From a virus, in IMG/VR virus record IMGVR_UViG_3300035145_001365, positions 1 to 39,450 of that record: a stretch of 39,450 nt of DNA. One strand, given 5' to 3'. The first letter of the stretch is position 1. The number at the start of each line of letters is the position of its first letter. The notes below the pieces were generated by a model that saw only the letters and a program-made list of their open reading frames with translations, searched no databases and had not been told where the DNA came from. This document shows, piece after piece, positions 12,601-38,227 of the stretch. The translations under genes were made by a program, and so were the position numbers.

Positions 12601-14520
12601 TGTACCTGAAGAACCCGATGAACCCGAAGTGCCACTACTTCCACTTGACCCACTAGTTCCACTAGAACCTGAGGAACCACTTGTTCCTGAACTTCCACTT
12701 GAACCAGAGGTACCTGAAGAACCACTACTTCCTGATGTTCCTGATGAACCCGAAGAACCGCTAGTCCCTGATGATCCTGAACTTCCTGAAGTTCCGCTTG
12801 AACCACTAGAACCAGAAGTTCCTGATGATCCTGAGGATCCACTAGTACCTGAACTACCTGAACTACCCGATGTGCCTGAAGATCCACTGCTTCCTGAAGT
12901 ACCAGATGATCCTGAACTTCCACTTGTTCCACTACTTCCAGATGAACCTGAGGTACCACTAGAGCCAGAGCTCCCTGAAGTACCTGAGGAACCACTAGAA
13001 CCTGAAGTACCTGAACTACCTGATGAACCTGAAGTACCAGATGATCCTGAACTTCCACTAGTACCTGATGAACCACTGCTTCCACTTGTACCACTGGATC
13101 CTGAAGAGCCAGATGTACCAGAACTTCCTGATGAACCTGAGGTACCTGAGGAACCAGATGAACCTGAAGTACCACTTGAACCTGAGCTTCCCGATGTTCC
13201 TGAAGAACCTGATGAACCACTTGTACCTGAAGAACCAGAACTACCAGAAGTACCAGACGAACCACTTGAGCCTGAAGTGCCTGAGCTTCCGCTTGAACCT
13301 GAAGTACCACTACTTCCACTACTACCACTTGTTCCACTACTTCCAGAACTGCCTGAAGTACCACTACTTCCACTAGAGCCTGATGTTCCTGAAGAGCCAC
13401 TGCTTCCACTTGTTCCACTAGAGCCTGATGAACCACTTGTTCCTGAGCTTCCGCTACTTCCACTAGTACCTGAAGAACCCGATGAACCTGAAGTGCCTGA
13501 AGAACCTGAAGAACCACTTGTTCCACTAGAGCCTGATGAACCCGAAGTACCTGATGATCCTGAGGAACCTGAAGTACCACTAGAGCCTGATGAGCCTGAG
13601 GTACCTGATGATCCTGAGCTACCTGAGGTACCTGAAGAACCTGATGAACCCGAAGTACCTGATGATCCTGAGGAACCTGAAGTACCTGATGATCCTGAGG
13701 AACCTGAAGTACCACTAGAGCCTGATGAGCCTGAGGTACCTGATGAACCTGATGAACCTGAAGTACCACTAGAACCTGATGAACCATTAGTACCTGAGGA
13801 GCCTGACGAACCATCTGTACCTGATGATCCTGAGGAACCTGAAGTACCACTAGAGCCTGATGAGCCTGAGGTACCTGATGAACCTGAAGAACCTGAGGTG
13901 CCTGAAGAACCTGATGAACCTGAAGTACCTGAAGAACCACTAGACCCTGAGGTACCTGAGCTACCTGATGAACCCGAAGTACCTGATGAGCCCGAACTAC
14001 CAGAAGTACCTGAGGAACCTGATGAGCCTGAAGTACCAGATGATCCTGAAGAGCCTCCAGTTCCACCCCCACCACCCCCTTCTCCATCATTATAATCTAA
14101 AGAGAAACAAACTTTATCTCCTATTGAAAAGGGTTGCTCACTGCTAAATGTAAATGAACCAGAAATACTACCAGAAACAACAGATATATCAACATAACTA
14201 TCTGTTTCATTTTTAGTAATGTTATAATAATTAAATATAACGTAAGTATCTGGGTCTAGTTTGTTATATATTTTAACATTTCCAGCATTACTACTGGTAA
14301 GATATGATGCTATATTATGTTCTAGGTCTGTTTCGTATGAAACATATATGCTTTCAACATTAGTAACATTAAAATCGTTACTTGCAGGATTTATAAAGCT
14401 AATTTTACCTGATTCTGGGGTGGATCCTACAGAGGTAAAGACATAAGGTATACAAAAGCTACGGTCTCCACTCGTGGCTGTTTGTGCATCTACCCTATCT
14501 ATTATAAATCTTTGTGCCAT
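9655..14520 (-). CDS. Giant collagen-like tail fibre protein (1621 aa)
   Basis: Residues 1-145 are a folded N-terminal domain beginning MAQRFIIDRVDAQTATSGDRSF. Then a glycine hinge (DGEGGGGGGTGG) leads into about 1300 residues of strict Gly-X-Y repeat, almost all GSSGSSGTS units. A 160-residue C-terminal domain follows (INENWLPIGGTTIVNL ... YNAIRWQDLPL), rich in aromatic residues. The plan is attachment domain, very long stalk, distal head. Unit variants are rare: one GTD and one GTN close together near the N-terminal end, and a few single-triplet deletions that keep Gly at every third position. Codons are heavily shuffled although the protein barely changes. The start is the ATG at 14518-14520 with a GGAAAC stretch 10 nt upstream. 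The collagen-like fold is inferred from Gly periodicity; lack of proline is atypical for vertebrate collagen but seen in bacterial and phage collagen-like stalks. Confidence 0.85.
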   Translation of the reverse strand: MAQRFIIDRVDAQTATSGDRSFCIPYVFTSVGSTPESGKISFINPASNDFNVTNVESIYVSYETDLEHNIASYLTSSNAGNVKIYNKLDPDTYVIFNYYNITKNETDSYVDISVVSGSISGSFTFSSEQPFSIGDKVCFSLDYNDGEGGGGGGTGGSSGSSGTSGSSGSSGTSGSSGSSGTSGSSGSSGTSGSSGSSGTSGSSGSSGTSGSSGSSGTSGSSGSSGTSGSSGSSGTDGSSGSSGTNGSSGSSGTSGSSGSSGTSGSSGSSGTSGSSGSSGTSGSSGSSGTSGSSGSSGTSGSSGSSGTSGSSGSSGTSGSSGSSGTSGSSGSSGTSGSSGSSGTSGSSGSSGTSGSSGSSGTSGSSGSSGTSGSSGSSGTSGSSGSSGTSGSSGSSGTSGSSGSSGTSGSSGSSGTSGSSGSSGTSGSSGSSGTSGSSGSSGTSGSSGSSGTSGSSGSSGTSGSSGSSGTSGSSGSSGTSGSSGSSGTSGSSGSSGTSGSSGSSGTSGSSGSSGTSGSSGSSGTSGSSGSSGTSGSSGSSGTSGSSGSSGTSGSSGSSGTSGSSGSSGTSGSSGSSGTSGSSGSSGTSGSSGSSGTSGSSGSSGTSGSSGSSGTSGSSGSSGTSGSSGSSGTSGSSGSSGTSGSSGSSGTSGSSGSSGTSGSSGSSGTSGSSGSSGTSGSSGSSGTSGSSGSSGTSGSSGSSGTSGSSGSSGTSGSSGSSGTSGSSGSSGTSGSSGSSGTSGSSGSSGTSGSSGSSGTSGSSGSSGTSGSSGSSGTSGSSGSSGTSGSSGTSGSSGSSGTSGSSGSSGTSGSSGSSGTSGSSGSSGTSGSSGSSGTSGSSGSSGTSGSSGSSGTSGSSGSSGTSGSSGSSGTSGSSGSSGTSGSSGSSGTSGSSGSSGTSGSSGSSGTSGSSGSSGTSGSSGSSGTSGSSGSSGTSGSSGSSGTSGSSGSSGTSGSSGSSGTSGSSGSSGTSGSSGSSGTSGSSGSSGTSGSSGSSGTSGSSGSSGTSGSSGTSGSSGSSGTSGSSGSSGTSGSSGSSGTSGSSGSSGTSGSSGSSGTSGSSGSSGTSGSSGSSGTSGSSGSSGTSGSSGSSGTSGSSGSSGTSGSSGSSGTSGSSGSSGTSGSSGSSGTSGSSGSSGTSGSSGSSGTSGSSGSSGTSGSSGSSGTSGSSGSSGTSGSSGSSGTSGSSGSSGTSGSSGTSGSSGSSGTSGSSGSSGTSGSSGSSGTSGSSGSSGTSGSSGSSGTSGSSGSSGTSGSSGSSGTSGSSGSSGTSGSSGSSGTSGSSGSSGTSGSSGTSGSSGSSGTSGSSGSSGTSGSSGSSGTSGSSGSSGTSGSSGSSGTSGSSGSSGTSGSSGSSGTSGSSGTSGSSGTSGSSGSSGTSGSSGSSGTSGSSGSSGTSGSSGSSGTSGSSGSSGTSGSSGSSGTSGSSGSSGTSGSSGSSGTSGSSGSSGTSGSSGSSGTSINENWLPIGGTTIVNLATSTLTNVLSGQQIGHWYFDTKIFIVQSNQAGYNAGGGNYWFVNVFANVRITPYLTQLSGNSYDYAYEMDVVSFTGTKVRINGTTGTVFEVLIKEFPIYFTDTTGTGTDLSFKIGNFWDDGSGTALGDVKYKYVYNAIRWQDLPL
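10143..14055 (-). repeat. Collagen-like GSSGSSGTS array, about 1300 residues, synonymous codons shuffled
   Basis: The array encodes nine-residue units with Gly at every third position. The DNA toward the N-terminal end (about 13550-14050) is rich in repeated CCTGATGATCCT and CCTGAGGAACCT blocks, whereas the centre (about 10200-13450) uses mixed Ser, Gly and Thr codons with no obvious long exact repeat. Two other reading frames are stop-free as a simple consequence of the codon set. Confidence 0.93.
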
Positions 14521-19994: not shown

Positions 19995-22900
19995 TTATTG
20001 TATTCTGTATGAATCTTGTCCTAAAGCTTGTCCAACTTTATTACCATTCATTTCTACTACAATTGGCCTATTTACTACTTGGTTCATTTGTTGAACAAAT
20101 GAAGCCATAATTTGTTTCATTTCTTGAAGTTCTACTTTAAGATCTTCAGTACTTTGAGTTTCTACTTCTTTTTTCTCTTCTTCTTCTCCAAATAATGAAT
20201 CTTTAAATTCTCCTAATTTTTCAAATATAGGAGATATCTTTTCTTCAGGTGATAAACTAGAAGTAATTTTACCGAAAGCACTCATAGCAGCTTCTATAGG
20301 ATTCCCTACTCCCATACTATCCATTAATTTAGTACCTCCCATAATTAAATCATCTTTATTAAATTTAAGAGGGGGTTCACCTGGGCGGAGAATAAAGTCA
20401 TCAAGTTGTTGGGCTTGGGCTATTAAAGTTTCATACCCTACTGTATTTCCTGCTGCTTTAGCAGCATTAGCTTTATCTATAAGATCAGATTTTTGGTTAG
20501 CTTTTAACATACCAAGTACTTGATCAAACTTAGCTTTATCTTCAAGACCTGCTTCGGATAACTCTCTTGTTAAATTATCCATAGCAGCGGTATATTCTTC
20601 TGTAGTAATACCATCTGCTAAAACTTCTGTAAGATCCATTCCTAGATCTTTTAAGCCTTCTTGGAGCTTTTTATCTTCTGTTAATTGTTCTTTAGTTACT
20701 CCTGCTATTGCATCTACTAATCCTGATTCACTTTGCAATCTAGTTGCATCTAAAGTAGTTTGGGCCCCTTTTGCTGTTGCTGCTGTTACATCATCTGTGA
20801 TTCCATATTCAATTTGTTGAGTTACTACTTCTAGTAACTTATTCATTCCCTCTGATGTAGAAATATCTACATCTTCCATAGCAGGACCTGCAAATATTTC
20901 TGAAGCTTGGGACATTGCTGTTGCAATTTCTTCAGCTGTTGCTCCAGTAGCTTTTAGTTTTTCTTGTAATTCAGCTCTGAAGGCGGCAGAATCTGAATCA
21001 GTTCCTGCTAATGCTTCAGATGCAGTTGTATTAATGTAAGAAGAAAGATCATCTGAGTATTTTGTTAATAATTCCGCTGATATTCTTCCACTTTGGTCTG
21101 TGAATGTTTTAAGAACATTAAGTTGTGCATTAACTACGTCTTCATCAACCCCTGCATCTGCAAGTGCTTTTGCTTTAGCTTCATCTCCTAAAGCTTTAGC
21201 GGCTGATAGTGCTGATTCTGTAAGGTTTTTAAGTTTATTTCCTGCTCCTACAGCAGCAGCATTCATAAATTCTAAAGGACTTATAGTTCCTTTTAAAGCA
21301 CCAATAAATTGTTCTTCAGTAACATTACCAGCATTTAGAGCATCAATAGCTAACTCTTTAAATGCTTCACTTGTATTATCTATATCTAGATTTTGTATAC
21401 TTTCAAAAGTAGTTCCAACTCCACCTAATTTTTCAGCAAATTTCTTTTTTTCTTCAATTTCAAGAGCTGCAGCTTTTTTAGTAGCTTCTAATCTCATTTT
21501 AGCAGCAGCAAGAGCAAATTTATCTTGAGCTACTTGAGTTTTTTTCATATTTCTAAGCCTTTCTTTTTGGGCTCTAAACGCGGTAGAATTTATCCACTTT
21601 TGATTTTTTTCATAATCAAAACCGGCTTTAACAACACCTGCTGTAAATCCTACTACCGCTCCAACTGCGGTACCCACAACTGGGATCATGCTACCAATAC
21701 CTGCTCCTATAGCAGTATATGAAGCTACAGTACCTGCGGCTGCTAATGATTCAGCTTTAAGCAACTTATCTTTTTGGGCTTGTATAGCATCCTCTTTAGC
21801 TTGGCCTTCTTCCATTACCATAATTTGGTCATCCATAGCAGATGCTGCTTTTCTAGACTTTTTAGCAAAGTGACTAAATGCGGCTTCAGCTGCCATACCT
21901 GCTGCTGCGAATACTACACCTCCTTTGGCTAATTGGCCTAATGTTTTTCCTATATTAGCTATCTTTCCTACGCCTCCTGCTAATCTACCTGCAGCTTGGG
22001 CAGAACCAGGTCCTGTACCTCCTACAAATGAGGCACCTTGTCCTGTAAGTAATCCTTTACCTGCTCTTAATAATCTAGCTCTACCTACCTTACCGGCACG
22101 ACCTCCTTTAAGGGACATTTTAGCGTAATCAAATAAACCTTTCCATCCTTTTTTAAATCCACCTCCAATTCCAGCTTGTCTTCCTCCACTCCTCATTAGA
22201 TTATTCATTAGGTCACTTCCTCCGCTCCCTCCAACATTCTCGACATATAAAGGATTCTTTTTACTTTCACCTTTTTTACCTTTAAATAAATCCCTTAATC
22301 CTGTAAGACCATCTTTTACATCTTTACCAATTTTAAAGCCTTTAATGGCAACTGGTGCTATGGCAAGTGATATAGCTGCCCCGTCACCTGATAGTAGCTT
22401 TCCTAATTGTGAGTTTTTAAAGAAATCAATAGCTTTTTTAATACCTTCTTTAATAGAATTAAACCCATCTTTAATATCTTGGTATACTTTTTTAATTTTT
22501 TCGGTTAAAGCGTCTATATCGACATTTTCTAATTTGTCTACCATAGAGCTAAGGAAGTTAGCTATGCTTTCAAACACACTTCCAGCATCCGTACCTGTTT
22601 TTTCAACTCCTAAAAGTCGTTCTATTACCCCACCTACTACTTTATAAATGCTACCAAATAATTTTAATACTCCTTGGAATATATTTTTAAGTGCGGGTCC
22701 ACTATTTTTTACAATGTCTACTAAACGTAAACCTACACCATTCATAAATTTACCAAGACGTTCAGCATAAGGTAAAACTTCTTTTTCAAATGCTTTTCCA
22801 CCTTCTCCTACTAGTCCACCAAAGGCATCAAAGAAGGGTTTCATTTGTTCTACAATAACTGCTTTAATGTTTTTAATAATTCCTTCTACTCTATAAAAAG

Positions 22901-25541
22901 CATCAAATACTTTATTAACAGCCGTAGCCATAGCTAATTGAGCATCTGCTATATCTCTTTCTTGTTGAGCTCTTTTTTCTTGTAAAGAAATTTCCCTCAT
23001 TTGATCCTGGAGTGCGTCTGAAGCACCCATTTCTTTCATTTTAGCAAGGGCAGCTTCTTCGGATCCAGTTTCTTTTAGTAATTCTTTAAACTTAGCTTGA
23101 GCATCATTCATGTCATCAAACCCAGTACCTGCTAAAAGTTCTTGGGTTTTAAGCATATTTGCTAATTCATCTCGGCTTACACCTACTGATTTAGCTAATG
23201 CTTCTTGTTGGATAACATTCATTTTACCAAATTCAGCAGCTGATCCAATTTGTCCTGCTACTTCTTTAGCAACTGTGGCTAGATCACCTTGTAAAGCTGC
23301 TGATCTAGCTCTTTCTAGGTTTAAGTCTTTGCCAAGTAATAATTCAGCTTCCATTTCATTAGCAATAGAGCTTTCAAAATCAAGTAAATTACTACCAATA
23401 GCTTCGGTTTGGGCTAAAGATAACCCCATTTTTTTAGCATGGAAAGCGGCTTCTGCTAAACTTTTACCAGATGCTCTAAGTGTTAATTGTTGAGCAGCAC
23501 TTGATTTAGCAATTTCAGCCATTACTTCTTTTTCAGAAATTGCAATGTTATTACGTTCTTTAAGTGCCTGTATTTGTGTTTTATACGTTAATGTAGTGTC
23601 TGATGCTTCCTGACCTGATAATTGTGACAATTTGACAAATTCAGAGGCTTCCTCGTTAGTTAAACCGTATAATTTAGTTAATTGACCAAATGTTTTTACA
23701 GTGTCATCTGAGAATTTTTGAGTAGTGCCAAATGCTTTATTTAATTCTCCTATTCCTGCTGCTAATTCTTCAGGCAACATACCTAAAGAACGACCTATTT
23801 TACTGGCTTGGGTAGTTAATTCTTTAGCATTTTTAGTAGAAACACCTAAACCCGTAGCAAGATCAGCTACAGCTTGAGAAAGTTGTTGGCGTAATTGATC
23901 ACCAACTTTAGCATCGTCTATATAGCTTTGTAAAGAAAAGAATTGGTCTTTAAGATAAGATATTCCCTCTTTAAATTTACCTACAAGATCACTAACAAAT
24001 TTAGTAATAATATTACCTCCAAATGCGCTAAATATAGCTTTAGCTAATTTTTTAGTTAATGCTATTGCTATTCCTATACCTCCTAATGCTTTAAGTTCAG
24101 AAGCCATACCTTTAAAGGTAGCACTAATTCCTTTACCTAATACCCTAAATGAATCTCCTACTTTAGTAACTAATGAATTAGCTTTCCGAGATGCATCTTC
24201 AGCATCAATAGCATCCATTTTAGCTTGTTCTGCTAAATTTTTTCTTTCGTCATACTCTTTTTGTGCTGCCTGGATTTGAGTAGCGCTGCCATTTAGTTTA
24301 GCATCTGTTAATTGTTGTTCAGCATTTTCTAAAGCTTTAGCAGCATCTTCACTAGCTTGTTGGGCAAGTGCTGCTTCACCTCTGGCTTTTTGTCTTCCTG
24401 CTACCAACTCAGCGGCATATTCTTTAGCTGCTTTTGTACCTTCATCTAAACCTAAAACAATAACTTGGTTATCCAATCCAATTTTCTTTAGGATTCCTCC
24501 AGCAGCTCCTAAAGATAAATTCCATAAAGTTTGAGCTCCAACTATTTGGCGAACTCTCTTATTTTCTTCTTTAAGATAATCAACTCCAGTTTCAGATTGT
24601 TTTAAAGCTTTTTCACCTTCAACATATAATTTTTGGTCTGTATCTAATTCCTTTTGTTTTTCTTCTAGAATATCTCTTTGAACATCTGCATTTTCTTGAT
24701 GTAAAGCATATCTTTTAGCTGCCTCTGATCCTGCTTTAAATTCGTCTTTATATTGTTCTTGGGCTTGTTGTTTAGCTCGTTGTCTTGCTAATGCTGTTTT
24801 TTCTACAGTAGTAAGTCCATCTTCATATAAAGTAACTCTTGCCTTAGATCGCTTATATTCTTCTTGAGCAGTTTTTATTTGTTTTTCTGTTCCTGTTTTA
24901 AGGGCTGCTTCATATCTTCTACGTTTTACTTCTTGGTCTTCTTCAAGCTTTTTTATTGCCCCCATTTTGGCATAAAGAGACTGAACATTAATTCCGCTAG
25001 TTTCTACAAACTTATTATACTGGCGTTCGGCTTCTATTTTATTACGTTGAGCCTCAACTATTTTATCCGCGGACTTTTGGTCCTGAGTAGTCATAGTCCT
25101 CCTTTCAGCAGCTAATGTTCTTTCAATGCTGCCTAATTCTTTTTCCGCCTCTAAATATTCTTTAGCTTGTTTTAATCTGTCTTCTCCAAGCTTATTAGCT
25201 ATTACTCCTACGTCTTTTACTAAACGTTCGTGAAGTTCTGTGGCTTTATTTGTGTCTCTTATAGCTTTACCTGCATCTGTGTAAGGGGTAGCGAAATCTT
25301 TAGTTAGATTATTTATTTTAGTAATACTACTAATTAAATCTTTATCAGCTTGTGTAGATTTTTTCTTTTCACCTACTGTATCTTTTATAGAATCTACTAA
25401 TTGAGAAGTACGAGTGGTTAAAATAGATACAAATTCAGTGGATTCCCTTATGCCAGCTTGGTAATCCGCTAGTAACTCGTTACTGTCTCTTTGTAAGTCG
25501 TTAAACCGTGACTGATTATTAATATCTTCTTCAGAAGCCAT
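19995..25541 (-). CDS. Tail tape measure protein (1848 aa)
   Basis: The longest non-repeat gene. Residues 1 to about 450 are charged, heptad-rich coiled coil (for example QKEYDERKNLAEQAKMDAID). Three hydrophobic stretches follow: about 485-510 (GIGIAIALTKKLAKAIFSAF), about 1205-1225 (GGVVFAAAGMAAEAAF) and about 1269-1305 (AIGAGIGSMIPVVGTAVGAV), typical of tape measures that insert into the host inner membrane. A C-terminal coiled coil (LQEMKQIMASFVQQMNQVV) ends with RPIVVEMNGNKVGQAL, a common ending in this family. It follows the gp26-like chaperone or hub genes, as usual. At about 0.15 nm per helical residue it predicts a tail near 280 nm. The start is the ATG at 25539-25541, 27 nt after a strong hairpin. 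Confidence 0.93.
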   Translation of the reverse strand: MASEEDINNQSRFNDLQRDSNELLADYQAGIRESTEFVSILTTRTSQLVDSIKDTVGEKKKSTQADKDLISSITKINNLTKDFATPYTDAGKAIRDTNKATELHERLVKDVGVIANKLGEDRLKQAKEYLEAEKELGSIERTLAAERRTMTTQDQKSADKIVEAQRNKIEAERQYNKFVETSGINVQSLYAKMGAIKKLEEDQEVKRRRYEAALKTGTEKQIKTAQEEYKRSKARVTLYEDGLTTVEKTALARQRAKQQAQEQYKDEFKAGSEAAKRYALHQENADVQRDILEEKQKELDTDQKLYVEGEKALKQSETGVDYLKEENKRVRQIVGAQTLWNLSLGAAGGILKKIGLDNQVIVLGLDEGTKAAKEYAAELVAGRQKARGEAALAQQASEDAAKALENAEQQLTDAKLNGSATQIQAAQKEYDERKNLAEQAKMDAIDAEDASRKANSLVTKVGDSFRVLGKGISATFKGMASELKALGGIGIAIALTKKLAKAIFSAFGGNIITKFVSDLVGKFKEGISYLKDQFFSLQSYIDDAKVGDQLRQQLSQAVADLATGLGVSTKNAKELTTQASKIGRSLGMLPEELAAGIGELNKAFGTTQKFSDDTVKTFGQLTKLYGLTNEEASEFVKLSQLSGQEASDTTLTYKTQIQALKERNNIAISEKEVMAEIAKSSAAQQLTLRASGKSLAEAAFHAKKMGLSLAQTEAIGSNLLDFESSIANEMEAELLLGKDLNLERARSAALQGDLATVAKEVAGQIGSAAEFGKMNVIQQEALAKSVGVSRDELANMLKTQELLAGTGFDDMNDAQAKFKELLKETGSEEAALAKMKEMGASDALQDQMREISLQEKRAQQERDIADAQLAMATAVNKVFDAFYRVEGIIKNIKAVIVEQMKPFFDAFGGLVGEGGKAFEKEVLPYAERLGKFMNGVGLRLVDIVKNSGPALKNIFQGVLKLFGSIYKVVGGVIERLLGVEKTGTDAGSVFESIANFLSSMVDKLENVDIDALTEKIKKVYQDIKDGFNSIKEGIKKAIDFFKNSQLGKLLSGDGAAISLAIAPVAIKGFKIGKDVKDGLTGLRDLFKGKKGESKKNPLYVENVGGSGGSDLMNNLMRSGGRQAGIGGGFKKGWKGLFDYAKMSLKGGRAGKVGRARLLRAGKGLLTGQGASFVGGTGPGSAQAAGRLAGGVGKIANIGKTLGQLAKGGVVFAAAGMAAEAAFSHFAKKSRKAASAMDDQIMVMEEGQAKEDAIQAQKDKLLKAESLAAAGTVASYTAIGAGIGSMIPVVGTAVGAVVGFTAGVVKAGFDYEKNQKWINSTAFRAQKERLRNMKKTQVAQDKFALAAAKMRLEATKKAAALEIEEKKKFAEKLGGVGTTFESIQNLDIDNTSEAFKELAIDALNAGNVTEEQFIGALKGTISPLEFMNAAAVGAGNKLKNLTESALSAAKALGDEAKAKALADAGVDEDVVNAQLNVLKTFTDQSGRISAELLTKYSDDLSSYINTTASEALAGTDSDSAAFRAELQEKLKATGATAEEIATAMSQASEIFAGPAMEDVDISTSEGMNKLLEVVTQQIEYGITDDVTAATAKGAQTTLDATRLQSESGLVDAIAGVTKEQLTEDKKLQEGLKDLGMDLTEVLADGITTEEYTAAMDNLTRELSEAGLEDKAKFDQVLGMLKANQKSDLIDKANAAKAAGNTVGYETLIAQAQQLDDFILRPGEPPLKFNKDDLIMGGTKLMDSMGVGNPIEAAMSAFGKITSSLSPEEKISPIFEKLGEFKDSLFGEEEEKKEVETQSTEDLKVELQEMKQIMASFVQQMNQVVNRPIVVEMNGNKVGQALGQDSYRIQ

Positions 25542-25568
25542 GCAGTGTTGTTTTCATATAAATATGAA

Positions 25569-25592
25569 GAGGCACCGCTTTTGCGGTGCCTC
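25569..25592 (-). terminator. Strong hairpin between the chaperone ORF and the tape measure gene
   Basis: A perfect 10-bp inverted repeat (GAGGCACCGC / GCGGTGCCTC) around a 4-nt loop (TTTT on the plus strand, AAAA on the coding strand). It begins 3 nt beyond the stop codon of the ORF at 25595. On the coding strand it is followed by TTCATATTTATATG, a weak U-tract, so termination may be partial. The tape measure ATG lies 27 nt downstream. Confidence 0.75.
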
Positions 25593-25594
25593 CT

Positions 25595-25828
25595 TTATAC
25601 GCGCTGCCCAGGTTTTATGTCAGGGGGTGGTTTAGTGAAGTCAATTTGTCGAGTTGTGCCTCCTGCAGTTTGTTGGGCAGCACTTTGTTGAGCTTCGTTT
25701 TGATCCTTGACATGTTGCGCTATTCTATTGTAAGTAAAGCGCCTTAGCCAAATGGGCATGTTATATATTGTCTCCCAATCGAAACCGCCATTACCATGAT
25801 ATACTATATCATGAATCATGGCGAACAT
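25595..25828 (-). CDS. Small tail-assembly/hub chaperone-like ORF, possibly the frameshift extension of the gp26-like gene
   Basis: The recognisable part is MFAMIHDIVYHGNGG, then DWETIYNMPIWLRRFTYNRI and a Gln/Ala-rich disordered tail ending PPPDIKPGQRV. I recognise this 'IHxIVxxGxGGxxWxxVYxMPIWLRxF' signature from short proteins next to gp26-like genes in marine T4-like phages (gp51-like hub-assembly position). If initiated independently, the ATG at 25826-25828 gives 77 aa, 13 nt after the upstream stop. The reading frame remains open upstream to 25927, but residues before SRFFGLTPEYR are an out-of-frame reading of the gp26-like gene. Because TPEYRISMFAMIHD also reads as natural protein, a +1 or -2 frameshift product is plausible (see the shift-site entry). 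Confidence 0.6.
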   Translation of the reverse strand: MFAMIHDIVYHGNGGFDWETIYNMPIWLRRFTYNRIAQHVKDQNEAQQSAAQQTAGGTTRQIDFTKPPPDIKPGQRV

Positions 25829-25841
25829 GCTTATTCTATAT

Positions 25842-26597
25842 TCAGGCGTCAGGCCAAAAAAACGTGACCCCGATAGGAATCTTAACATCTTCTTGAGAAT
25901 CACCCCCATCTTCAGGGTAAAAATCAAATGTTAAGTCCATATCGGGCTGTATCTCCTTAATATGTTCTCTTAATGCTCTAGAATCACGAGCTAAGAGATA
26001 ATTATCTACAAATTCTCTAATGCTTTTACGGCTATCATCTCCATTTACTGATAGAATCATCTGCTTTAATCTCATAGATAATTCTGGAGATGCTAGTTTG
26101 TTGATTTTCTTTGCTCCTTTAATTTCCGCTTCAATAGCTTTTTCATCCTTATTGTTTAGAATTTTAAAAGTAATAGGAGTTTCAGTATGAGGTAAAGTAT
26201 AGCTAAACTCATTAGTGTTAGGTTCTACTAAATCTTCTTCTTTAATCCACTTAGGATCAATTTCAGATAAATCAACTGTAACTTCTTGTCCTTCATATTC
26301 AAAGGTATAATCTTTACCATAGCCAAGAATACGAGAGGCGACCATTATAGCGTTTTTATCGCCTACTACAAGGTCATCATAATTACACTTCGACACAATC
26401 AGGGATTGCATCAACTTATCAAGAACAACGCCTTGTCTAATGTAATTTTGGTTGGTTAAAATATCTTCTTCTTTAGCAGTCATGTACTTCATTTCAACTT
26501 TGCCAGAAGATAGGGGGTTGTCTTTAGGGTAAAGTAAACCTTTCGAAGGCAACTCTACAATTTCCGTAGGAAATTTAAACTTTTTTTCTTCACTCAT
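25842..26597 (-). CDS. T4 gp26-like baseplate hub / tail assembly protein (251 aa)
   Basis: Begins MSEEKKFKFPTEIVELPSKG and continues LLYPKDNPLSSGKVEMKYMT and AKEEDILTNQNYIRQGVVLDKLMQSLI. This block (LPSxGxLYPxxxPLxSGxVExKYMTAKEEDIL) is the hallmark of the T4 gp26-type baseplate protein family. The C-terminus is KIPIGVTFFWPDA. In T4 gp26 acts in assembly of the baseplate hub; here the position directly upstream of the tape measure also fits a tail assembly chaperone role. The start is the ATG at 26595-26597, with a TATTTATA element directly before it. A terminator separates it from the tube gene upstream, so it needs its own promoter or read-through. Confidence 0.85.
   Translation of the reverse strand: MSEEKKFKFPTEIVELPSKGLLYPKDNPLSSGKVEMKYMTAKEEDILTNQNYIRQGVVLDKLMQSLIVSKCNYDDLVVGDKNAIMVASRILGYGKDYTFEYEGQEVTVDLSEIDPKWIKEEDLVEPNTNEFSYTLPHTETPITFKILNNKDEKAIEAEIKGAKKINKLASPELSMRLKQMILSVNGDDSRKSIREFVDNYLLARDSRALREHIKEIQPDMDLTFDFYPEDGGDSQEDVKIPIGVTFFWPDA
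25856..25862 (-). promoter_or_regulatory. T7 run: candidate +1/-2 ribosomal frameshift site
   Basis: Near the end of the gp26-like gene the coding strand reads ACG TTT TTT TGG CCT GAC GCC TGA. Skipping one T (or slipping back two) after TTT TTT enters the frame GGC CTG ACG CCT GAA of the downstream ORF, giving a fusion of about 333 residues with the junction GVTFF-GLTPEYR. A -1 slip instead meets TGA after two codons. Placement just before the tape measure matches phage tail assembly chaperones, where frameshifting is common (lambda G/GT -1, Mu -2, PSA +1). Confidence 0.45.
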
Positions 26598-26633: not shown

Positions 26634-26663
26634 GAAATAAAAAGAGCGCACTTTCGTGCGCTC
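26634..26663 (-). terminator. Intrinsic terminator after tail tube gene
   Basis: On the coding strand an 8-bp stem GAGCGCAC / GTGCGCTC closes a GAAA tetraloop and is followed by TTTTTATTTC, a textbook rho-independent terminator. The stem spans 26644-26663 and lies 23 nt beyond the tube stop codon. Confidence 0.9.
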
Positions 26664-26686: not shown

Positions 26687-27175
26687 TTAGTAATTTAATA
26701 CGCAGTAATCTGGTGCAAGGGTCATTGTGATATTTTGAGCAGCGTTTTCGTTGTCCCAGTTGTAGTCACCAAAGTTAGCATCTACAATAAAGCATCCTTT
26801 CAACACCCACTCAGAAACGATATCACCAACAGGGCCTAAGATATTTAATGTTACGTCCTTCTTGTAGAAGTCAGAGTAACCATCTCTACCTGTTACTGAT
26901 TCGTGATGTAGTCTTACCCATTCCATAATGGTTTGTGTTCCAGAAGGTGAGATAGGATCGTGAAGGGTTAACTGTACGTTACCCCAAGTGGTCTTACCTT
27001 TTACTTTTCTGTATACGTTAATATGATTGAGGACTACTTCTCCTTGTGTCAATGAAATTGCTCCCACACCCTTAATGAAGTACGAAGGTACACCATCAAC
27101 AAGCATGAGGAATCTATTCTGCTGTTTGGGTTCAAACGCTGTAAAAAATATTTCGTTTGGATCTAATACTGCCAT
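26687..27175 (-). CDS. Tail tube protein (gp19-like)
   Basis: 162 residues, close to the 163 of T4 gp19. It begins MAVLDPNEIFFTAFEPKQQN and continues NRFLMLVDGVPSYFIKGVGA, the N-terminal 'F.P....RF.v.vdgi.sy.ik.v..p' pattern of myovirus tube proteins. The middle has GNVQLTLHDPISPSGTQTIMEW and the C-terminus NITMTLAPDYCVLNY. Tube proteins form stacked hexamers inside the sheath. It follows the sheath gene but has its own terminator on each side, suggesting independently tuned, high expression. The start is the ATG at 27173-27175 after a leader of about 110 nt. Confidence 0.88.
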   Translation of the reverse strand: MAVLDPNEIFFTAFEPKQQNRFLMLVDGVPSYFIKGVGAISLTQGEVVLNHINVYRKVKGKTTWGNVQLTLHDPISPSGTQTIMEWVRLHHESVTGRDGYSDFYKKDVTLNILGPVGDIVSEWVLKGCFIVDANFGDYNWDNENAAQNITMTLAPDYCVLNY

Positions 27176-27290: not shown

Positions 27291-29048
27291 TTACGCTGGG
27301 AATTCAGCTCCTGTTGGTAGGAGGTTGAAGTCAAGTACGATAAATTCTGCTGTCTTAACTGGTTGTAGGTAAATAGTGCCTCTTAACTCTTGTCTGTCGA
27401 TTACGTCAGGACCGTTGTTTGAGTCATCCATTATTACCTTAAACGCATACAAACCTTGGTTCTGTTGAACACTTTCTAAGTATGGGTTAACAACACTTAA
27501 GAAGCTATTTCTAGTTTGTAATGTGTTAGGTTCAAAGACGAGGTTCTGAGAAACGTTACCAATAAATGCTTTAAGAGCAATCATTAATCTTCTAACATTA
27601 ACTCTATCAAGTGATGTTGATAGGGATTGTAATGTTTTCTGACCGTATACTACAACACCTGTACCTGGGAAGGTAGCGATTGGGTTGATTTTAGCGGTGT
27701 AAAGATTATCTCTTAATCCACGTGGTAATGTTTTTTCAGGGGCTACTACATTTGGCATAGTACCTCTAGTGAAACCAGCAGGTGCAAACCAGGCTTCAGA
27801 AGTATTATCATTAAAGACATATACTGAAGGGATTACTGTTGAAGCTGGGCACCATACGTTAGCTGCTGTGTTTTCATCGCTTACTAACAACCAAGGCCAG
27901 TATGCAGCTGCATAGTTGGTATTTAAGTTATTAGCTTGTGTAATAGCAGCTGCTGTAGTAGAACCATAAGTTACAATATCAATTGGTAAAATACTATCAC
28001 CTCTAGTAGTTGTATTAGTAATAATATCATCTAATACTGATTTGTGGGATACACCTTCGGTTGCAGTAGTAAATGCATATATAAGACCGGGAACACTAAT
28101 TACATTAAAGTTATATTGATCTTTATTCTTTAATAAATTAACTGATGCTGTGTAGTCTAATGCTGTTACACCTTGTGAGTTAGTAGCTGTGATATCCTTA
28201 TAGTATTTAGTTCCTTCGGAGCCATGGAAAATACTACCAACACCATCACCAAATGAACCACTTTGTGCTTTAGGTAATGAAGAAGTAAATTCTGCTTTAA
28301 AGTTACCAGCACCATCTAAATAATCAGGAGTAGGCTTAAGAACCGTGCTTACAATTACATACTTAGATTTGTTTGGATATTCACCTGTTACTTGAACAAA
28401 TGAATCGTTACCATCTACTCCCACAGTAAATACCTGGTTACCAATTACTTTAGCGATGTAATCATCTCTTTTAGGATCAAGTGATACACCTCTCCAAGAC
28501 TCAAGAATTGTTTTATCAGCTTGTCTATCATTACCTTGTCTAATATTAAGGGTAAAGACACCTGAACCTGAGTCTACGTTAGTGATTTCCCATCTTAAGT
28601 TATCCGCTGAACCTGAAACTAAAGCGTTTCCTGTGGTTTCAGTAGAATCACTGTTTTGGTTTTCACCTTCAGAGATGGTTTGAAGTTTGAATACATTGTT
28701 TACACCTGTACCAGAATTACTACCTGTTACTATAGCTGAAGAAGTAGCTGGTGTAAAATCATTAGATCCACTAGCAACTCTGATCACTGTAAGGCTAGTA
28801 CCTCCTTGCTTAAAGTAGTTTTGAGCTGATATACCAGTAAAGTATGAGTATTCAATACCACCACTAACAACACCTGCACCAAATTTAGTTACGTAATCAG
28901 TGTAAGTAGTTGTTAAGGTAGGAATACCTATAGGTCCTTTTACTGCAGGACCTATTATAGCGGCACCTATGGGTGCTGCCGCTGCCTCAAGGGCTACAGG
29001 AACATTCTCATTCTGGAATACTCCTGGTGAAATTATTTGTTCTGCCAT
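27291..29048 (-). CDS. Contractile tail sheath protein (gp18-like)
   Basis: 585 residues. The N-terminus MAEQIISPGVFQNENVPVA is the 'SPGVxxxExD/N' signature of tail sheath proteins, followed by AAAAPIGAAIIGPAVKGPIG and LTTTYTDYVTKFGAG. The C-terminal domain contains RVNVRRLMIALKAFIGNVSQ and LVFEPNTLQTRNSFLSVVNP, then VIDRQELRGTIYLQPVKTAE, the conserved region that contacts the tube and neighbouring sheath subunits. T4 gp18 has 659 residues, so this is a somewhat shorter version. It is followed by a terminator and preceded by an 18-nt palindrome next to the start codon. Confidence 0.95.
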   Translation of the reverse strand: MAEQIISPGVFQNENVPVALEAAAAPIGAAIIGPAVKGPIGIPTLTTTYTDYVTKFGAGVVSGGIEYSYFTGISAQNYFKQGGTSLTVIRVASGSNDFTPATSSAIVTGSNSGTGVNNVFKLQTISEGENQNSDSTETTGNALVSGSADNLRWEITNVDSGSGVFTLNIRQGNDRQADKTILESWRGVSLDPKRDDYIAKVIGNQVFTVGVDGNDSFVQVTGEYPNKSKYVIVSTVLKPTPDYLDGAGNFKAEFTSSLPKAQSGSFGDGVGSIFHGSEGTKYYKDITATNSQGVTALDYTASVNLLKNKDQYNFNVISVPGLIYAFTTATEGVSHKSVLDDIITNTTTRGDSILPIDIVTYGSTTAAAITQANNLNTNYAAAYWPWLLVSDENTAANVWCPASTVIPSVYVFNDNTSEAWFAPAGFTRGTMPNVVAPEKTLPRGLRDNLYTAKINPIATFPGTGVVVYGQKTLQSLSTSLDRVNVRRLMIALKAFIGNVSQNLVFEPNTLQTRNSFLSVVNPYLESVQQNQGLYAFKVIMDDSNNGPDVIDRQELRGTIYLQPVKTAEFIVLDFNLLPTGAEFPA

Positions 29049-32578: not shown

Positions 32579-35500
32579 TTAGTTAAATAGATAGAATGTA
32601 TTATTAGTTACTGGGGAGCTTTGGCTATTTAGCTTATAAACTTTATAAGTTAAACCTCCTGTTGTGCTAACTGTAGATTTAGTAAATGAACTTAATACGT
32701 TAGAACCTTCAGGAGAACCTTGTCTAATAGCTGTTAAATCTCCAACACTATCGTTATAAATAATATAATAGAAAGCATCTACCGTATTAGTTATTACAAC
32801 ATTTGTAGTACCATTATTGATAGTAGTAGTATTAAATTGGATGTTTCCATCTTCTACTTCAGATCCACCTTCCCAAGTATCTACATCTAATAATTCTGCT
32901 GCTGAAAATGAACTACTATTAGCAGAAGCACCTGATCTTAAAGATATTATTCTGCTAAAGGCTTTACTGTTAGTTGTTGAGTCTGTAGAAGGGGTACCAT
33001 TTCCATTTGAATTCCAGTTAGCTGTCAAATTAATAGTATTAGGTGTTCCTGTTTGGTTAATTGTTGTAGTAGCACCATTAGGGGAATCATTTGTTTTTGA
33101 CCATCCATTACTTGTGGTGGGGGCTGTTGCACTATAAGTAATAGATCCTGCAACTCCTTGTTCTATTACTGAGGTACTAGTGCTAGTTGTCCCAGTATTT
33201 GTGGCAAGAGAAGAATCTCCTATTGTAAATGTCCAAGCTGCTGATATTCCTGGGTTATCTGCGTCTTGTTTATTTAGAGTAGTATTACCACTAGTAAGTG
33301 ATGTTAATTCTTTACTAAGTAAAGATCCATCTTCTAATTCTACACATAAGCTAGCTGTAAATAAGTGCGAACCTGAATGTAGATAATCAATATTACTATT
33401 ATTAGTATCTACTGCAAGAGTAGTACTACTAGCTCCTGATACTGATTTAGTGATTTCTGTTATAACTCCATCTATTCTTGTTAATAATGATGAAGATACT
33501 AAAGTGTTAGTAGGATCTAACGTATATTCAAATGTAAATTCATATTCATTATCAATTACATAACTTTGATCTCCGGCAGCATACGGTCCTGTAAATCTGT
33601 TTCTTCTAAAGTATCCAGCACTTGTACCATTACCAATTGTAAATGCTGTTAATGTAGGTTCTGCTGGGGCACCAAATTGTAGTATCAATGTTCCGTTACT
33701 TGAAGTTACAAACACGTTATTGTCAAAATCTATAATTTTTAAAAAGCTTAAATCTAATATGTCAGCAGAACCAGTTTGATATTGTACTGTTGATGAAGTA
33801 CCTGAGCTACCACTGCTACCTGAAGTACCTGATGATCCTGAAGATCCATTAGTTCCACTTGAACCTGATGATCCTGAGGTACCTGATGACCCTGAACTAC
33901 CTGACGTACCTGATGACCCTGAAGAGCCACTTGTTCCTGAAGATCCACTTGATCCATTAGTTCCTGACGATCCTGAAGAACCAGAAGTGCCGCTTGAACC
34001 TGATGAACCTGAAGTACCTGAAGAACCTGATGAGCCACTAGTTCCTGATGAGCCACTTGAACCAGAAGTTCCAGAAGAACCGCTGCTACCTGAAGTACCT
34101 GATGAGCCTGAGCTTCCACTTGTGCCACTTGAACCAGATGAACCACTTGTACCTGATGATCCTGAAGAGCCTGAGGTTCCCGATGAACCTGATGAACCAC
34201 TAGTTCCGGATGAACCGCTTGAACCAGAGGTTCCTGATGAGCCAGATGATCCACTTGTTCCACTACTTCCAGAAGAACCACTTGTACCAGAAGAACCTGA
34301 TGATCCTGAAGTACCTGATGAACCGCTTGAACCTGAAGTACCCGAACTACCTGACGAGCCTGAGGTACCTGATGATCCTGAAGAACCTGAAGTGCCTGAT
34401 GAACCGCTTGAACCTGAGGTACCTGAAGAACCTGATGATCCTGAAGTACCTGATGAACCGCTTGAACCTGAGGTACCTGATGATCCACTAGATCCTGAAG
34501 TGCCACTGCTGCCAGATGAACCACTGGTTCCACTACTTCCTGATGAACCAGATGTTCCTGATGAACCACTGCTTCCGCTAGTTCCACTTGAACCAGAGGA
34601 TCCTGAAGTACCAGATGAGCCACTAGAACCTGAGGTACCAGAACTACCTGATGAACCTGAAGTACCACTACTCCCACTAGTGCCTGAACTTCCACTTGAT
34701 CCACTTGTTCCGCTTGAACCAGAACTTCCGCTTGTTCCTGATGAACCGCTTGAGCCTGAGGTACCACTGCTTCCTGAGCTTCCACTTGTTCCACTTGAGC
34801 CTGAACTACCTGATGTACCTGAGCTACCGCTGCTTCCACTTGTTCCTGATGAACCACTGCTACCACTAGTTCCACTAGAACCTGAAGAACCAGAAGTGCC
34901 AGAACTTCCTGAAGAGCCACTTGTTCCACTACTTCCTGAGGTACCACTTGAACCTGAAGAACCTGAGGTTCCTGATGAACCACTACTGCCTGATGTTCCT
35001 GAACTTCCCGAAGAACCGCTAGTGCCAGAACTTCCGCTAGAGCCTGAGGTACCACTAGAGCCAGATGAACCTGAAGTACCAGATGAACCACTACTTCCAC
35101 TAGTTCCACTTGAACCAGAAGAACCACTTGTGCCTGAAGAGCCGCTTGAACCTGAAGTGCCTGATGAACCACTACTACCAGATGTGCCACTGCTTCCAGA
35201 ACTTCCTGAGGTGCCTGAACTACCAGATGAACCGGATGTACCTGAAGAACCTGAGCTACCTGAGGTACCTGAGCTTCCTGAAGTACCTGAAGATCCACTT
35301 GAACCAGATGTTCCTGAGCTTCCAGATGATCCTGAAGTACCTGATGATCCTGAAGAACCTGAAGTACCTGATGAACCACTAGAGCCTGAGGTACCTGATG
35401 AGCCTGAGCTTCCACTTGTACCGCTTGAACCAGATGAACCACTTGTACCTGATGATCCTGAAGAGCCTGAAGTTCCACTGGAACCTGAGCTTCCTGAAGT

Positions 35501-38227
35501 ACCGCTACTTCCTGATGAACCTGAAGTGCCACTGCTTCCACTAGAACCAGAAGTTCCTGAAGAGCCACTGCTTCCACTAGTTCCACTAGAGCCCGAGCTA
35601 CCAGACGTTCCTGATGAGCCGGATGAGCCACTAGTTCCTGATGAACCTGATGTTCCACTACTTCCAGATGAGCCACTTGTACCGCTTGACCCACTAGATC
35701 CAGAAGTACCGGATGATCCTGAACTGCCTGAAGTTCCACTTGAGCCAGAGGAACCTGAAGTGCCTGATGATCCTGATGAGCCACTTGTACCGCTTGAACC
35801 AGACGAACCCGAAGTACCTGATGAGCCGCTAGATCCTGAAGTACCTGAGGAACCTGATGTGCCACTACTTCCACTACTACCAGATGTTCCACTACTTCCA
35901 CTAGTCCCTGATGAACCACTTGAACCTGAGGTACCACTAGAACCTGAGCTTCCACTAGTACCAGATGATCCACTACTACCTGAAGTTCCACTACTACCTG
36001 AGCTACCGCTGGTTCCACTACTTCCACTTGAACCCGAAGTACCTGATGAACCTGAACTACCACTTGTTCCAGAACTACCTGATGAGCCGCTAGTTCCGGA
36101 TGAGCCTGAACTGCCTGATGTACCACTTGAACCCGAGCTGCCACTTGTTCCAGAACTTCCTGAAGAACCTGATGTACCTGATGATCCACTTGAACCACTA
36201 GTACCACTAGATCCAGATGAACCTGAAGTACCTGATGAACCACTAGTTCCTGAGCTTCCAGATGACCCAGAAGTTCCTGATGAACCCGATGATCCTGAAG
36301 TACCAGACGATCCTGATGAACCTGATGTTCCACTGCTTCCACTTGAACCTGAGGTGCCTGAACTACCAGATGAACCACTTGTTCCACTACTACCTGAAGT
36401 ACCACTTGAACCTGAGCTTCCTGAAGTACCTGAAGAACCTGAGGAGCCACTAGTGCCAGAGGAACCACTAGAGCCTGAAGTGCCACTTGATCCTGAAGAG
36501 CCACTAGTTCCACTACTTCCTGAAGAACCTGATGTACCACTGCTTCCAGATGACCCTGAAGTGCCAGATGAGCCACTGCTCCCACTAGTACCTGATGATC
36601 CAGAGGAGCCTGATGTTCCTGAGCTACCTGAACTACCTGAAGTACCTGATGAACCACTTGAACCTGAAGTTCCGCTGCTACCTGATGATCCTGAAGTGCC
36701 AGATGAACCACTAGAGCCACTGGTACCAGATGAACCACTTGTTCCAGATGAGCCTGATGATCCACTAGTACCCGAACTACCAGATGAGCCTGATGTACCC
36801 GAAGAACCACTTGAGCCTGAAGTGCCACTTGATCCTGAAGATCCAGAGGTGCCCGAGCTACCAGATGAACCAGATGTTCCTGATGAACCACTACTTCCAC
36901 TAGTTCCGCTTGAGCCTGAACTACCTGATGTTCCTGATGATCCGCTTGAACCTGAAGTACCTGATGATCCTGAGGTACCTGATGATCCGCTTGAGCCAGA
37001 TGTTCCTGAACTTCCTGAAGAACCTGAAGTACCACTTGAGCCCGATGACCCCGAGGTGCCTGAGCTACCTGAGCTACCTGAAGTACCTGAAGAACCACTG
37101 CTTCCACTAGTGCCTGAACTTCCAGAACTTCCTGATGTTCCTGAACTTCCACTTGAACCACTTGTTCCTGAAGAGCCAGATGAGCCCGAAGTACCAGATG
37201 ATCCACTGGAACCACTAGTACCACTACTTCCTGATGAACCACTAGTACCTGATGATCCACTAGAACCTGAGGTACCTGATGAACCGCTCGAGCCAGATGT
37301 ACCTGAACTTCCTGAAGAACCTGATGTACCTGATGAACCACTAGACCCTGAAGTACCAGAGCTTCCTGAAGAACCAGATGTTCCTGATGAACCTGAACTT
37401 CCACTAGTACCGGATGAACCGCTTGATCCAGATGTTCCAGAACTACCAGATGAGCCACTGGTTCCACTAGATCCACTACTTCCACTAGTTCCTGAACTGC
37501 CAGAGCTACCTGAAGTACCCGAACTACCTGAAGTACCTGATGAGCCACTTGAACCTGAGGTACCTGAGCTTCCTGATGAACCTGAGGTACCTGAGCTACC
37601 TGAGCTACCTGAAGTACCTGATGAACCGCTTGAACCTGAAGTACCCGAACTACCTGAAGTACCTGATGAGCCACTTGAACCTGAGGTACCTGAGCTTCCT
37701 GATGAACCTGAGGTACCTGAAGAACCTGATGAACCCGAGGTACCTGATGATCCTGAGCTACCTGAGGTACCTGAAGAACCTGATGAACCCGAAGTACCTG
37801 ATGATCCTGAGGAACCTGAAGTACCTGATGATCCTGAGGAACCTGAAGTACCACTAGAGCCTGATGAGCCTGAGGTACCTGATGAACCTGAAGAACCTGA
37901 AGTACCTGAAGAACCTGACGAACCATCTGTACCTGAAGACCCTGAAGAACCCGAAGTACCACTAGAACCCGATGAACCCGAAGTACCACTAGAACCTGAT
38001 GAACCTGAGGCTCCTGCCTCTATTTGAGTCCATCCTGCTGAATTTCCTATGTTAGTTTTGTCTGTAAGATAGTATAATTCTTCTACATCTTCTTGATAAA
38101 CAATTAATCCTTCGTAAGCAACAGCAACATCAATTCCAAATCTGGCAGTTTGATTAGCAACCACAGTCCTAGCATCAATAGGATCTGTATTGTTAATATT
38201 AAAGCCTTCTGGGAATGTTACTGCCAT
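32579..38227 (-). CDS. Giant collagen-like tail fibre protein (1882 aa)
   Basis: Residues 1-70 form the attachment domain (FPEGFNINNTDPIDARTVVA to GWTQIEAGASG). About 1408 residues of Gly-X-Y repeat follow (38018-33793), nearly all GSSGSSGTS, with single-triplet deletions in several places; Asp or Asn replaces Ser only near the two ends. The C-terminal 400 residues start with GTSSTVQYQTGSADILDLSF and contain FDNNVFVTSSNGTLILQFGA, several Ser/Thr-rich beta domains, and end FYYIIYNDSVGDL ... LTYKVYKLNSQ. The C-terminal region is clearly related to that of the partial gene upstream. Role by architecture: virion base, long stalk and distal receptor-binding head. A fully extended collagen-like stalk would be about 400 nm. 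No autocleaving chaperone was recognised. Confidence 0.87.
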   Translation of the reverse strand: MAVTFPEGFNINNTDPIDARTVVANQTARFGIDVAVAYEGLIVYQEDVEELYYLTDKTNIGNSAGWTQIEAGASGSSGSSGTSGSSGSSGTSGSSGSSGTDGSSGSSGTSGSSGSSGTSGSSGSSGTSGSSGSSGTSGSSGSSGTSGSSGSSGTSGSSGSSGTSGSSGSSGTSGSSGSSGTSGSSGSSGTSGSSGTSGSSGSSGTSGSSGSSGTSGSSGSSGTSGSSGSSGTSGSSGTSGSSGSSGTSGSSGSSGTSGSSGSSGTSGSSGSSGTSGSSGSSGTSGSSGSSGTSGSSGSSGTSGSSGSSGTSGSSGSSGTSGSSGSSGTSGSSGSSGTSGSSGSSGTSGSSGSSGTSGSSGSSGTSGSSGSSGTSGSSGSSGTSGSSGSSGTSGSSGSSGTSGSSGSSGTSGSSGSSGTSGSSGTSGSSGSSGTSGSSGSSGTSGSSGSSGTSGSSGSSGTSGSSGSSGTSGSSGSSGTSGSSGSSGTSGSSGSSGTSGSSGTSGSSGSSGTSGSSGSSGTSGSSGSSGTSGSSGSSGTSGSSGSSGTSGSSGSSGTSGSSGSSGTSGSSGSSGTSGSSGSSGTSGSSGSSGTSGSSGSSGTSGSSGSSGTSGSSGTSGSSGSSGTSGSSGSSGTSGSSGSSGTSGSSGSSGTSGSSGSSGTSGSSGTSGSSGSSGTSGSSGSSGTSGSSGSSGTSGSSGSSGTSGSSGSSGTSGSSGSSGTSGSSGSSGTSGSSGSSGTSGSSGSSGTSGSSGSSGTSGSSGSSGTSGSSGSSGTSGSSGTSGSSGSSGTSGSSGTSGSSGSSGTSGSSGSSGTSGSSGSSGTSGSSGSSGTSGSSGSSGTSGSSGSSGTSGSSGSSGTSGSSGTSGSSGSSGTSGSSGSSGTSGSSGSSGTSGSSGSSGTSGSSGSSGTSGSSGSSGTSGSSGSSGTSGSSGSSGTSGSSGSSGTSGSSGSSGTSGSSGSSGTSGSSGSSGTSGSSGSSGTSGSSGTSGSSGSSGTSGSSGSSGTSGSSGSSGTSGSSGSSGTSGSSGSSGTSGSSGSSGTSGSSGSSGTSGSSGSSGTSGSSGSSGTSGSSGSSGTSGSSGSSGTSGSSGSSGTSGSSGTSGSSGSSGTSGSSGSSGTSGSSGSSGTSGSSGSSGTSGSSGSSGTSGSSGSSGTSGSSGSSGTSGSSGSSGTSGSSGSSGTSGSSGTSGSSGSSGTSGSSGSSGTSGSSGSSGTSGSSGSSGTSGSSGSSGTSGSSGSSGTSGSSGSSGTSGSSGSSGTSGSSGSSGTSGSSGSSGTSGSSGSSGTSGSSGSSGTSGSSGSSGTSGSSGSSGTSGSSGSSGTSGSSGSSGTSGSSGSSGTSGSSGSSGTSGSSGSSGTSGSSGSSGTSGSSGSSGTSGSSGSSGTSGSSGSSGTSGSSGSSGTSGSSGSSGTSGSSGSSGTNGSSGSSGTSGSSGSSGTSGSSGSSGTSGSSGSSGTNGSSGSSGTSGSSGSSGTSSTVQYQTGSADILDLSFLKIIDFDNNVFVTSSNGTLILQFGAPAEPTLTAFTIGNGTSAGYFRRNRFTGPYAAGDQSYVIDNEYEFTFEYTLDPTNTLVSSSLLTRIDGVITEITKSVSGASSTTLAVDTNNSNIDYLHSGSHLFTASLCVELEDGSLLSKELTSLTSGNTTLNKQDADNPGISAAWTFTIGDSSLATNTGTTSTSTSVIEQGVAGSITYSATAPTTSNGWSKTNDSPNGATTTINQTGTPNTINLTANWNSNGNGTPSTDSTTNSKAFSRIISLRSGASANSSSFSAAELLDVDTWEGGSEVEDGNIQFNTTTINNGTTNVVITNTVDAFYYIIYNDSVGDLTAIRQGSPEGSNVLSSFTKSTVSTTGGLTYKVYKLNSQSSPVTNNTFYLFN
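33793..38018 (-). repeat. Collagen-like GSSGSSGTS array, about 1408 residues
   Basis: The largest array in the window. Near the N-terminal end, long exact blocks repeat: a block starting at 37509 recurs at 37635 (126 nt, 14 Gly-X-Y triplets). The centre (about 34500-37400) is codon-shuffled with little exact repetition. The stretch 37737-37891 is identical to 13598-13752 in the other giant fibre gene. Confidence 0.93.

Follow-up and report, generated by a model that had tools for sequence, protein, structure and literature searches.

Does the gp26-like gene that precedes the putative tape measure gene of the virus record IMGVR_UViG_3300035145_001365 (IMG/VR) encode one protein, or two that share an N-terminus? 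The question comes from the end of this gene, ORF A (251 aa, 25842..26597, minus strand) in the window, the whole 39,450-base stretch that was analysed. The last codons of A read GTC ACG TTT TTT TGG CCT GAC GCC TGA, with a run of seven T (T7) at 25862-25856 and the stop codon at 25844-25842. From the T7 run, the +1 (or -2) frame is open for 86 codons up to a stop at 25597-25595, and this frame, B (25595..25855, minus strand), is the proposed C-terminal domain of a long form. Reading on after one T is skipped gives a conceptual A-B fusion of 333 aa (25595..26597, minus strand), ...GVTFF-GLTPEYRISMFAMIHD..., and the proposed +1 slip site is TTT_TTT_TGG_CCT (25851..25862, minus strand). The -1 frame meets a TGA two codons on, as it does in 115 of 115 unique junctions. 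The first-pass annotation, which had noted the overlap of the last codons with a T7 run, the +1 or -2 entry into the next ORF, a product of about 333 aa and an immediate stop in the -1 frame, is exact on all of these points. The sequence TTTTTTTGG occurs once in the window, both strands counted, and among 24 minus-strand ORFs compared, A shares a +1 continuation longer than 28 codons with only one other, the ORF at 8274-8933.

The surroundings of A and B are those of a tail module on the minus strand. A tail sheath gene (27291-29048, minus strand; phrog_23) is found there, a tail tube gene (26687..27175, minus strand; phrog_4542, E 2e-24) lies just upstream of A, and next after B comes a gene for an 1848-aa protein (19995..25541, minus strand). 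Family searches give this last protein no convincing family match of its own; its position is that of the annotated tape measure genes in relatives, so that the order in the window is tube, A, B, and the 1848-aa gene in the tape measure position. Relatives are annotated as tube, hub subunit, (B), tape measure, with the tube position once named a tail completion protein. Strong terminator-like hairpins flank the A-B unit, one of 12 bp directly 3' of B and ahead of the tape measure gene (25567-25594, minus strand; a consensus match only), the other between the tube gene and A (26644-26663); they could separate the transcript level of A-B from those of tube and tape measure. Promoter-like sites number 10 in the window against 7.0 expected, which is uninformative. 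Elsewhere in the window two genes are very long, one at 9655-14520 that PHROGs mark as fibre-like and one at 32579-38227; the opposite-strand open frames nearly as long as these (10145-14095 and 33987-38027) are probably codon-bias shadows.

Relatives of A and B were gathered from viral contigs, known phages and genome contigs, and a further 120 stretches were fetched by the DNA 14-mer TTTTTTTGGCCTGA alone. The searches for relatives each take in the best 80 or so loci while more exist, so that junction counts are samples rather than a census. The 386 loci examined yield 307 unique junctions with both A and B, duplicates counted once, after exclusion of six loci without A, three with A off the contig, and four unique loci without B (contig end within 22 bases); LR756511 (L158), with a distant A and no B match, is also left out of this count. 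Among the matches listed, B stands in the +1 frame in 305 of the 307 unique junctions, and the remaining two (L473 and L479) have B in another frame, without a shift. Matches to the 14-mer behave alike: 113 of the 120 stretches are A-B junctions in the same frames, one is an A at a contig end, and six lie elsewhere (L366, L375, L405, L412, L447, L463). The A-B arrangement is therefore more than chance. It had been proposed that an alignment of homologues might show T7 and both frames to be conserved, and this is so (TTT TTT TGG CCT in 276 of 305 junctions, the +1 frame in 305 of 307, among the matches listed). A single in-frame fused ORF, which was to be looked for in some phages, occurs in none of the 307 unique junctions listed for the window group. 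A sequencing error in the T run, which had been named as a possible refutation, can be dismissed, since the junction recurs in hundreds of independent contigs and in two groups of cultured phages.

The shift codons themselves vary little. TTT TTT TGG CCT is found in 276 of the 305 shifted junctions, TTT CTT TGG CCT and TTC TTT TGG CCT in 12 each, and five sites occur singly, each followed by CCT (TTT CTT TAC, TTT CTA TTC, TTT TTT TAT, TTT TTT TAC and CTT TTT TGG). The A-site codon is thus TGG, with TAT, TAC or TTC in singles. In the conservation profile few stretches of the junction are as conserved as the slip site, and the third position of both Phe codons is an invariant T (2.0 bits), against 0.1-1.3 bits at the third position of the ten codons upstream. 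The second shift codon is TTT in 291, CTT in 13, CTA in one and TTC in none of the 305 junctions listed, and a T follows in all of them. TTC makes up 569 of the 2787 Phe codons in A (20%), and about 6% (23 of 378) at three other conserved Phe columns; because of this lower figure, the lack of TTC at the second codon is support rather than proof, and weaker support than the 20% baseline implies. CTT at the second codon, seen 13 times, changes the amino acid and keeps the YUU_U slip. It requires 6-7 changes on a 173-row tree, at least five of them forced as separate events by the starred branches.

By profile and predicted structure A belongs with the gp26/gp51 family, and by profile so does B. 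A matches phrog_150 (baseplate hub) at E 2.7e-5, and the A of another locus (L464) does so at 3.2e-22. The two T4 proteins, gp26 and gp51, are members of PHROG_150; gp51 spans the profile to its end, and gp26 stops near position 235. In the cyanophages Syn9, P-SSM2 and S-PM2, the pelagiphage HTVC008M and the Sinorhizobium phage phiM12 the profile likewise leaves gp26 near position 234, and the remainder lies in a short gp51 ORF (found by a PHROG_150 search in four of these five, and in Syn9 by PHROG_634). When the fused +1 set (274 sequences) is compared by hhalign with a fused cyanophage set (65 sequences), the match spans 290 columns with probability 97.8 and E 6.6e-13, and the FF pairs of the +1 set and of the cyanophage -1 set line up in the alignment. 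B alone matches the cyanophage gp51 extension (probability 89.2, E 2.2e-6), against 0.1-0.2 for reversed and shuffled gp51 controls, and the cyanophage B matches T4 gp51 (61, E 8e-5) at gp51 211-246. Direct profile comparison of the +1 set with T4 gp51 is not significant (probability 4.0), so the link to T4 gp51 runs through the cyanophage proteins. Direct hhalign with single sequences of T4 gp51 or gp26 had no success, closer sets scored weaker than the broad set in profile comparison, and a Pfam search gave nothing useful for A or B.

The model of A (pLDDT 90.9) matches 51 predicted viral proteins at E <= 0.001, and many of these come from T4-like phages and carry the name baseplate hub subunit or hub assembly chaperone. 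Foldseek finds nothing significant for it in the PDB (E 2.4). With VIA-align, YqbN (3klu, Z 6.2), itself a tail chaperone of the PBSX/skin type, and the tail assembly chaperone of HK97 (2ob9, Z 5.3) rank first and second among 362 PDB chains. Both matches cover only residues 1-95 of the A model with middling Z scores, such as a common arrangement can give; that both best matches are tail chaperones is suggestive. B alone gives a weak, mainly helical model (pLDDT 65).

B might instead be a separate gene, started in or just after A by translational coupling, with the T7 run incidental. Two loci (L473 and L479) do have a separate B with an ATG just after the stop of A, the B of the window has an ATG at codon 10, and public annotations begin B internally or omit it. 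The conservation of B speaks otherwise, as it begins with the first codon past the shift, ahead of any usual start: in 121 full B sequences G1 is conserved at 0.99, L2 at 1.00, T3 at 0.93 and R7 at 1.00. An ATG in the open B frame ahead of the conserved block is found in only 34 of 126 loci (three more had no recognisable conserved block), any of ATG, GTG or TTG in 72, and none of the three in 54. Over the first 45 B codons, 2492 pairs show 18,279, 10,204 and 43,622 differences at codon positions 1, 2 and 3, with a dN/dS-like ratio of 0.08, so that B is under strong purifying selection. The slip site is highly conserved at the junction, and it is lost only where B has gained its own start. Homologues with separate starts and no slippery run, which had been named as evidence against a shift, are confined to that one lineage of two loci. 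We regard an independent start for B as highly improbable.

If B is reached by a shift, its direction and its agent may be judged from the variant sites. Ribosomes might shift by -2 on the T7 run, as in phage Mu, and add one extra Phe; -2 shifting in Mu is described in the excerpts of PMC5009743 consulted, and on T7 sites the P-site tRNA-Phe re-pairs as perfectly after -2 as after +1. Other sites tell the two apart. On TTC TTT TGG (the 12 unique junctions with TTC as first shift codon) tRNA-Phe re-pairs perfectly after +1 and would land on UCU after -2. The sites TTC TTT CGT of Streptococcus phage GXN1 (L496; B profile E 4.8e-7) and CTG TTT CGC of Streptomyces phage BRock (L498; B profile E 0.12, a weak match) also fit +1 and not -2, which would place tRNA-Phe on UCU or UGU, and TTT CTA TTC (L157) offers just UUU_C to a +1 slip. 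The B or B-like frame is the same +1 frame at all of these sites. The first-pass annotation had left +1 and -2 side by side; the variant sites favour the +1 half, and the -2 half, though not quite as improbable as an independent start, is very unlikely. RNA polymerase could also slip on T7, a homopolymer, and an mRNA one U short would be translated normally to exactly the A-B product. The 13 junctions with TTTCTTT and the 12 with TTCTTTT have T runs of at most 3 or 4 and leave the B frame unchanged, and this absence of a long homopolymer speaks against polymerase slippage, the least probable of the three alternatives. Since the variant sites fit +1, and several of them are at odds with -2 or with polymerase slippage, we prefer a +1 slip by the ribosome while UGG, a sense codon, occupies the A site.

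It would appear, then, and we hold it very probable, that A is the short form and A-B the long form of a tail assembly chaperone of the G/GT type, in the T4 gp26/gp51 family, made by +1 frameshifting. That the gp26-like protein is the chaperone short form and the fusion the long form had been suggested from the window by itself, and this assignment (TAC-N for A, TAC-NC for A-B) is now supported by synteny, by the profile homology to cyanophage proteins, by the structural matches of A, and by the conserved site and B frame. In the presumed ratio of short to long product, most ribosomes would read A through to its stop and yield the short form. A smaller share would have tRNA-Phe (tRNA-Leu at CUU) paired in the P site with the second codon of UUU-YUU while UGG, presumably slow to fill, stands in the A site; these would move ahead by one base to the overlapping UUU, take GGC as the next codon and continue in frame B. 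The shift would add a domain of about 83-111 residues, its first half predicted to be helical. By analogy with lambda, the short form may coat the tape measure protein, which the long form may tie to the tail tube subunit. The 60 nt past the slip show no folding advantage over shuffled sequence (mean z -0.19, 74 nonredundant sequences), the junction conservation profile reveals no other stimulator, and inspection of that profile shows no Shine-Dalgarno-like, invariant purine block at -9 to 0. The window has a small hairpin immediately ahead of its T run, where relatives have different flanking sequence.

The same junction is found with the opposite shift in other branches of the family. All 68 unique P-SSM2-like loci have TTT TTC just before the last codon, and in 66 of them the -1 frame stays open for 54-61 codons beyond it (7 and 12 in the other two). 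In four records (NC_006883, NC_008296, NC_020484 and KF381361; L182-L185) gp51, the "baseplate hub assembly catalyst," is annotated as short and separate with an internal start; upstream of that start its frame has no stop as far as a -1 slippery site within gp26. By the B profile, B is in the +1 frame in Listeria phage LIS04 (L497), Bacillus phage SP-15 (L495) and GXN1, and in the -1 frame in Agrobacterium phage Atu_ph07 (L499) and Xanthomonas phage XacN1 (L500). The sites of the last two are T TTT TTC and T TTT TTT, near the end of the gp26-like gene. The +1 B-like frame that follows the Phe codon is unannotated, truncated or separate in the records of SP-15, LIS04, GXN1 and, with its weak match, BRock.

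A 50-row tree puts the +1 rows and the pair with a separate B on one side of a branch whose support is only 84/8, with long branches present; a single switch of shift direction is possible on these sequences. The pair itself is nested in the CTT_T lineage (immuto, L487, L486) with supports of 97, 96, 89 and 99. Its slip sites are lost, reading TTC TTG TAT CCT and TTC CTT TGG CCA (L473 2001-3040, L479 2001-3010), and B is there a separate ORF with an ATG 2-5 bases after the stop of A and a new N-terminal extension. We think it probable that the direction of the shift has flipped between -1 and +1 within one chaperone family, with the slip kept on the same Phe-Phe pair; that the +1 branch (the window group, Flavobacterium phage immuto, Microcystis phage Mel-JY01, Bacillus SP-15, Listeria LIS04 and Streptococcus GXN1) mostly works with UGG, a sense codon, in the A site and lacks a recognisable RNA stimulator; and that one lineage passed from T7 through CTT_T to a lost site and a free-standing B.

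Much of the frame for these results is already in print. The excerpts consulted of PMC5009743, PMC3037559, PMC10885494, PMC12846349 and PMC3004832 between them hold the assignment to the tail assembly chaperone (TAC) family, the -1 sites and the two genes of T4. T4 gp26 and gp51 are listed as hub assembly chaperones (excerpts of PMC3004832). Cyanophage gp51 is described as reduced to its C-terminal part in excerpts of PMC3037559, the text of which does not contain the word frameshift. Short and long TAC genes of T4-like phages, gp26/gp51 of T4 and of cyanophages among them, and polyT -1 sites are credited to Vladimirov, Gautam and Davidson (2022) in excerpts of PMC10885494 and PMC12846349. No report of +1 shifting in the gp26/gp51 family was found in the literature searched, with the reservation that Vladimirov et al., known here through these citations, may mention +1 sites; what appears to be new is that the conserved direction is +1. 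To control tail length a phage needs one chaperone in two forms, and within one homologous family these come by a -1 shift, by a +1 shift, from two paralogous genes (T4) or from a separate second gene. Four routes in one family amount to a natural experiment on how a frameshift flips direction or is lost. The large natural set of +1 sites, with its variants, is also a tool for asking why UUU_UGG slips without a stop codon or RNA structure. On the practical side, public annotations miss the second ORF, cut it short or label it hypothetical.

Compared with TAC genes of the G/GT kind, the window group has the placement between tube and tape measure, an overlapping second ORF that mostly lacks its own start, and a conserved slippery site. 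The shift in lambda G/GT and many TAC genes is the canonical -1, the commonest direction, whereas B in the window group is +1, and no sequence similarity to lambda G/GT is claimed. A mechanical parallel lies outside phage tails. The release factor 2 gene, prfB, shifts +1 at CUU_UGA, with a stop codon in the A site and a Shine-Dalgarno-like stimulator upstream. The P-site slip by one base forward on YUU_U is the same, and 13 junctions carry exactly CUU_U; the A-site codon in the window group, in contrast, is UGG (or UAU/UAC), not a stop. With the gp26/gp51 proteins of T4 and the cyanophages (PHROG_150 and PHROG_634), the window group has a common family by profile and predicted structure. T4 has two separate genes where the window group has one gene with a +1 shift. 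The cyanophages have the junction at a Phe-Phe pair, as in the window group, but shift -1 at T TTT TTC, and HTVC008M and phiM12 shift -1 at a longer T run. According to the excerpts of PMC5009743 consulted, most tailed phages conserve the G-T shift, "except T4," and shifts of all three kinds (-1, -2, +1) occur among them; with +1 and -2 thus accepted within the TAC class, the +1 direction marks a variant of the class rather than an exclusion from it. The same excerpts describe a +1 shift as very likely in the TAC gene of the haloarchaeal myovirus HSTV-2, a contractile-tailed virus of an archaeal host that we liken to the window group by description only. With HSTV-2, +1 shifting of a TAC gene as such is not unprecedented.
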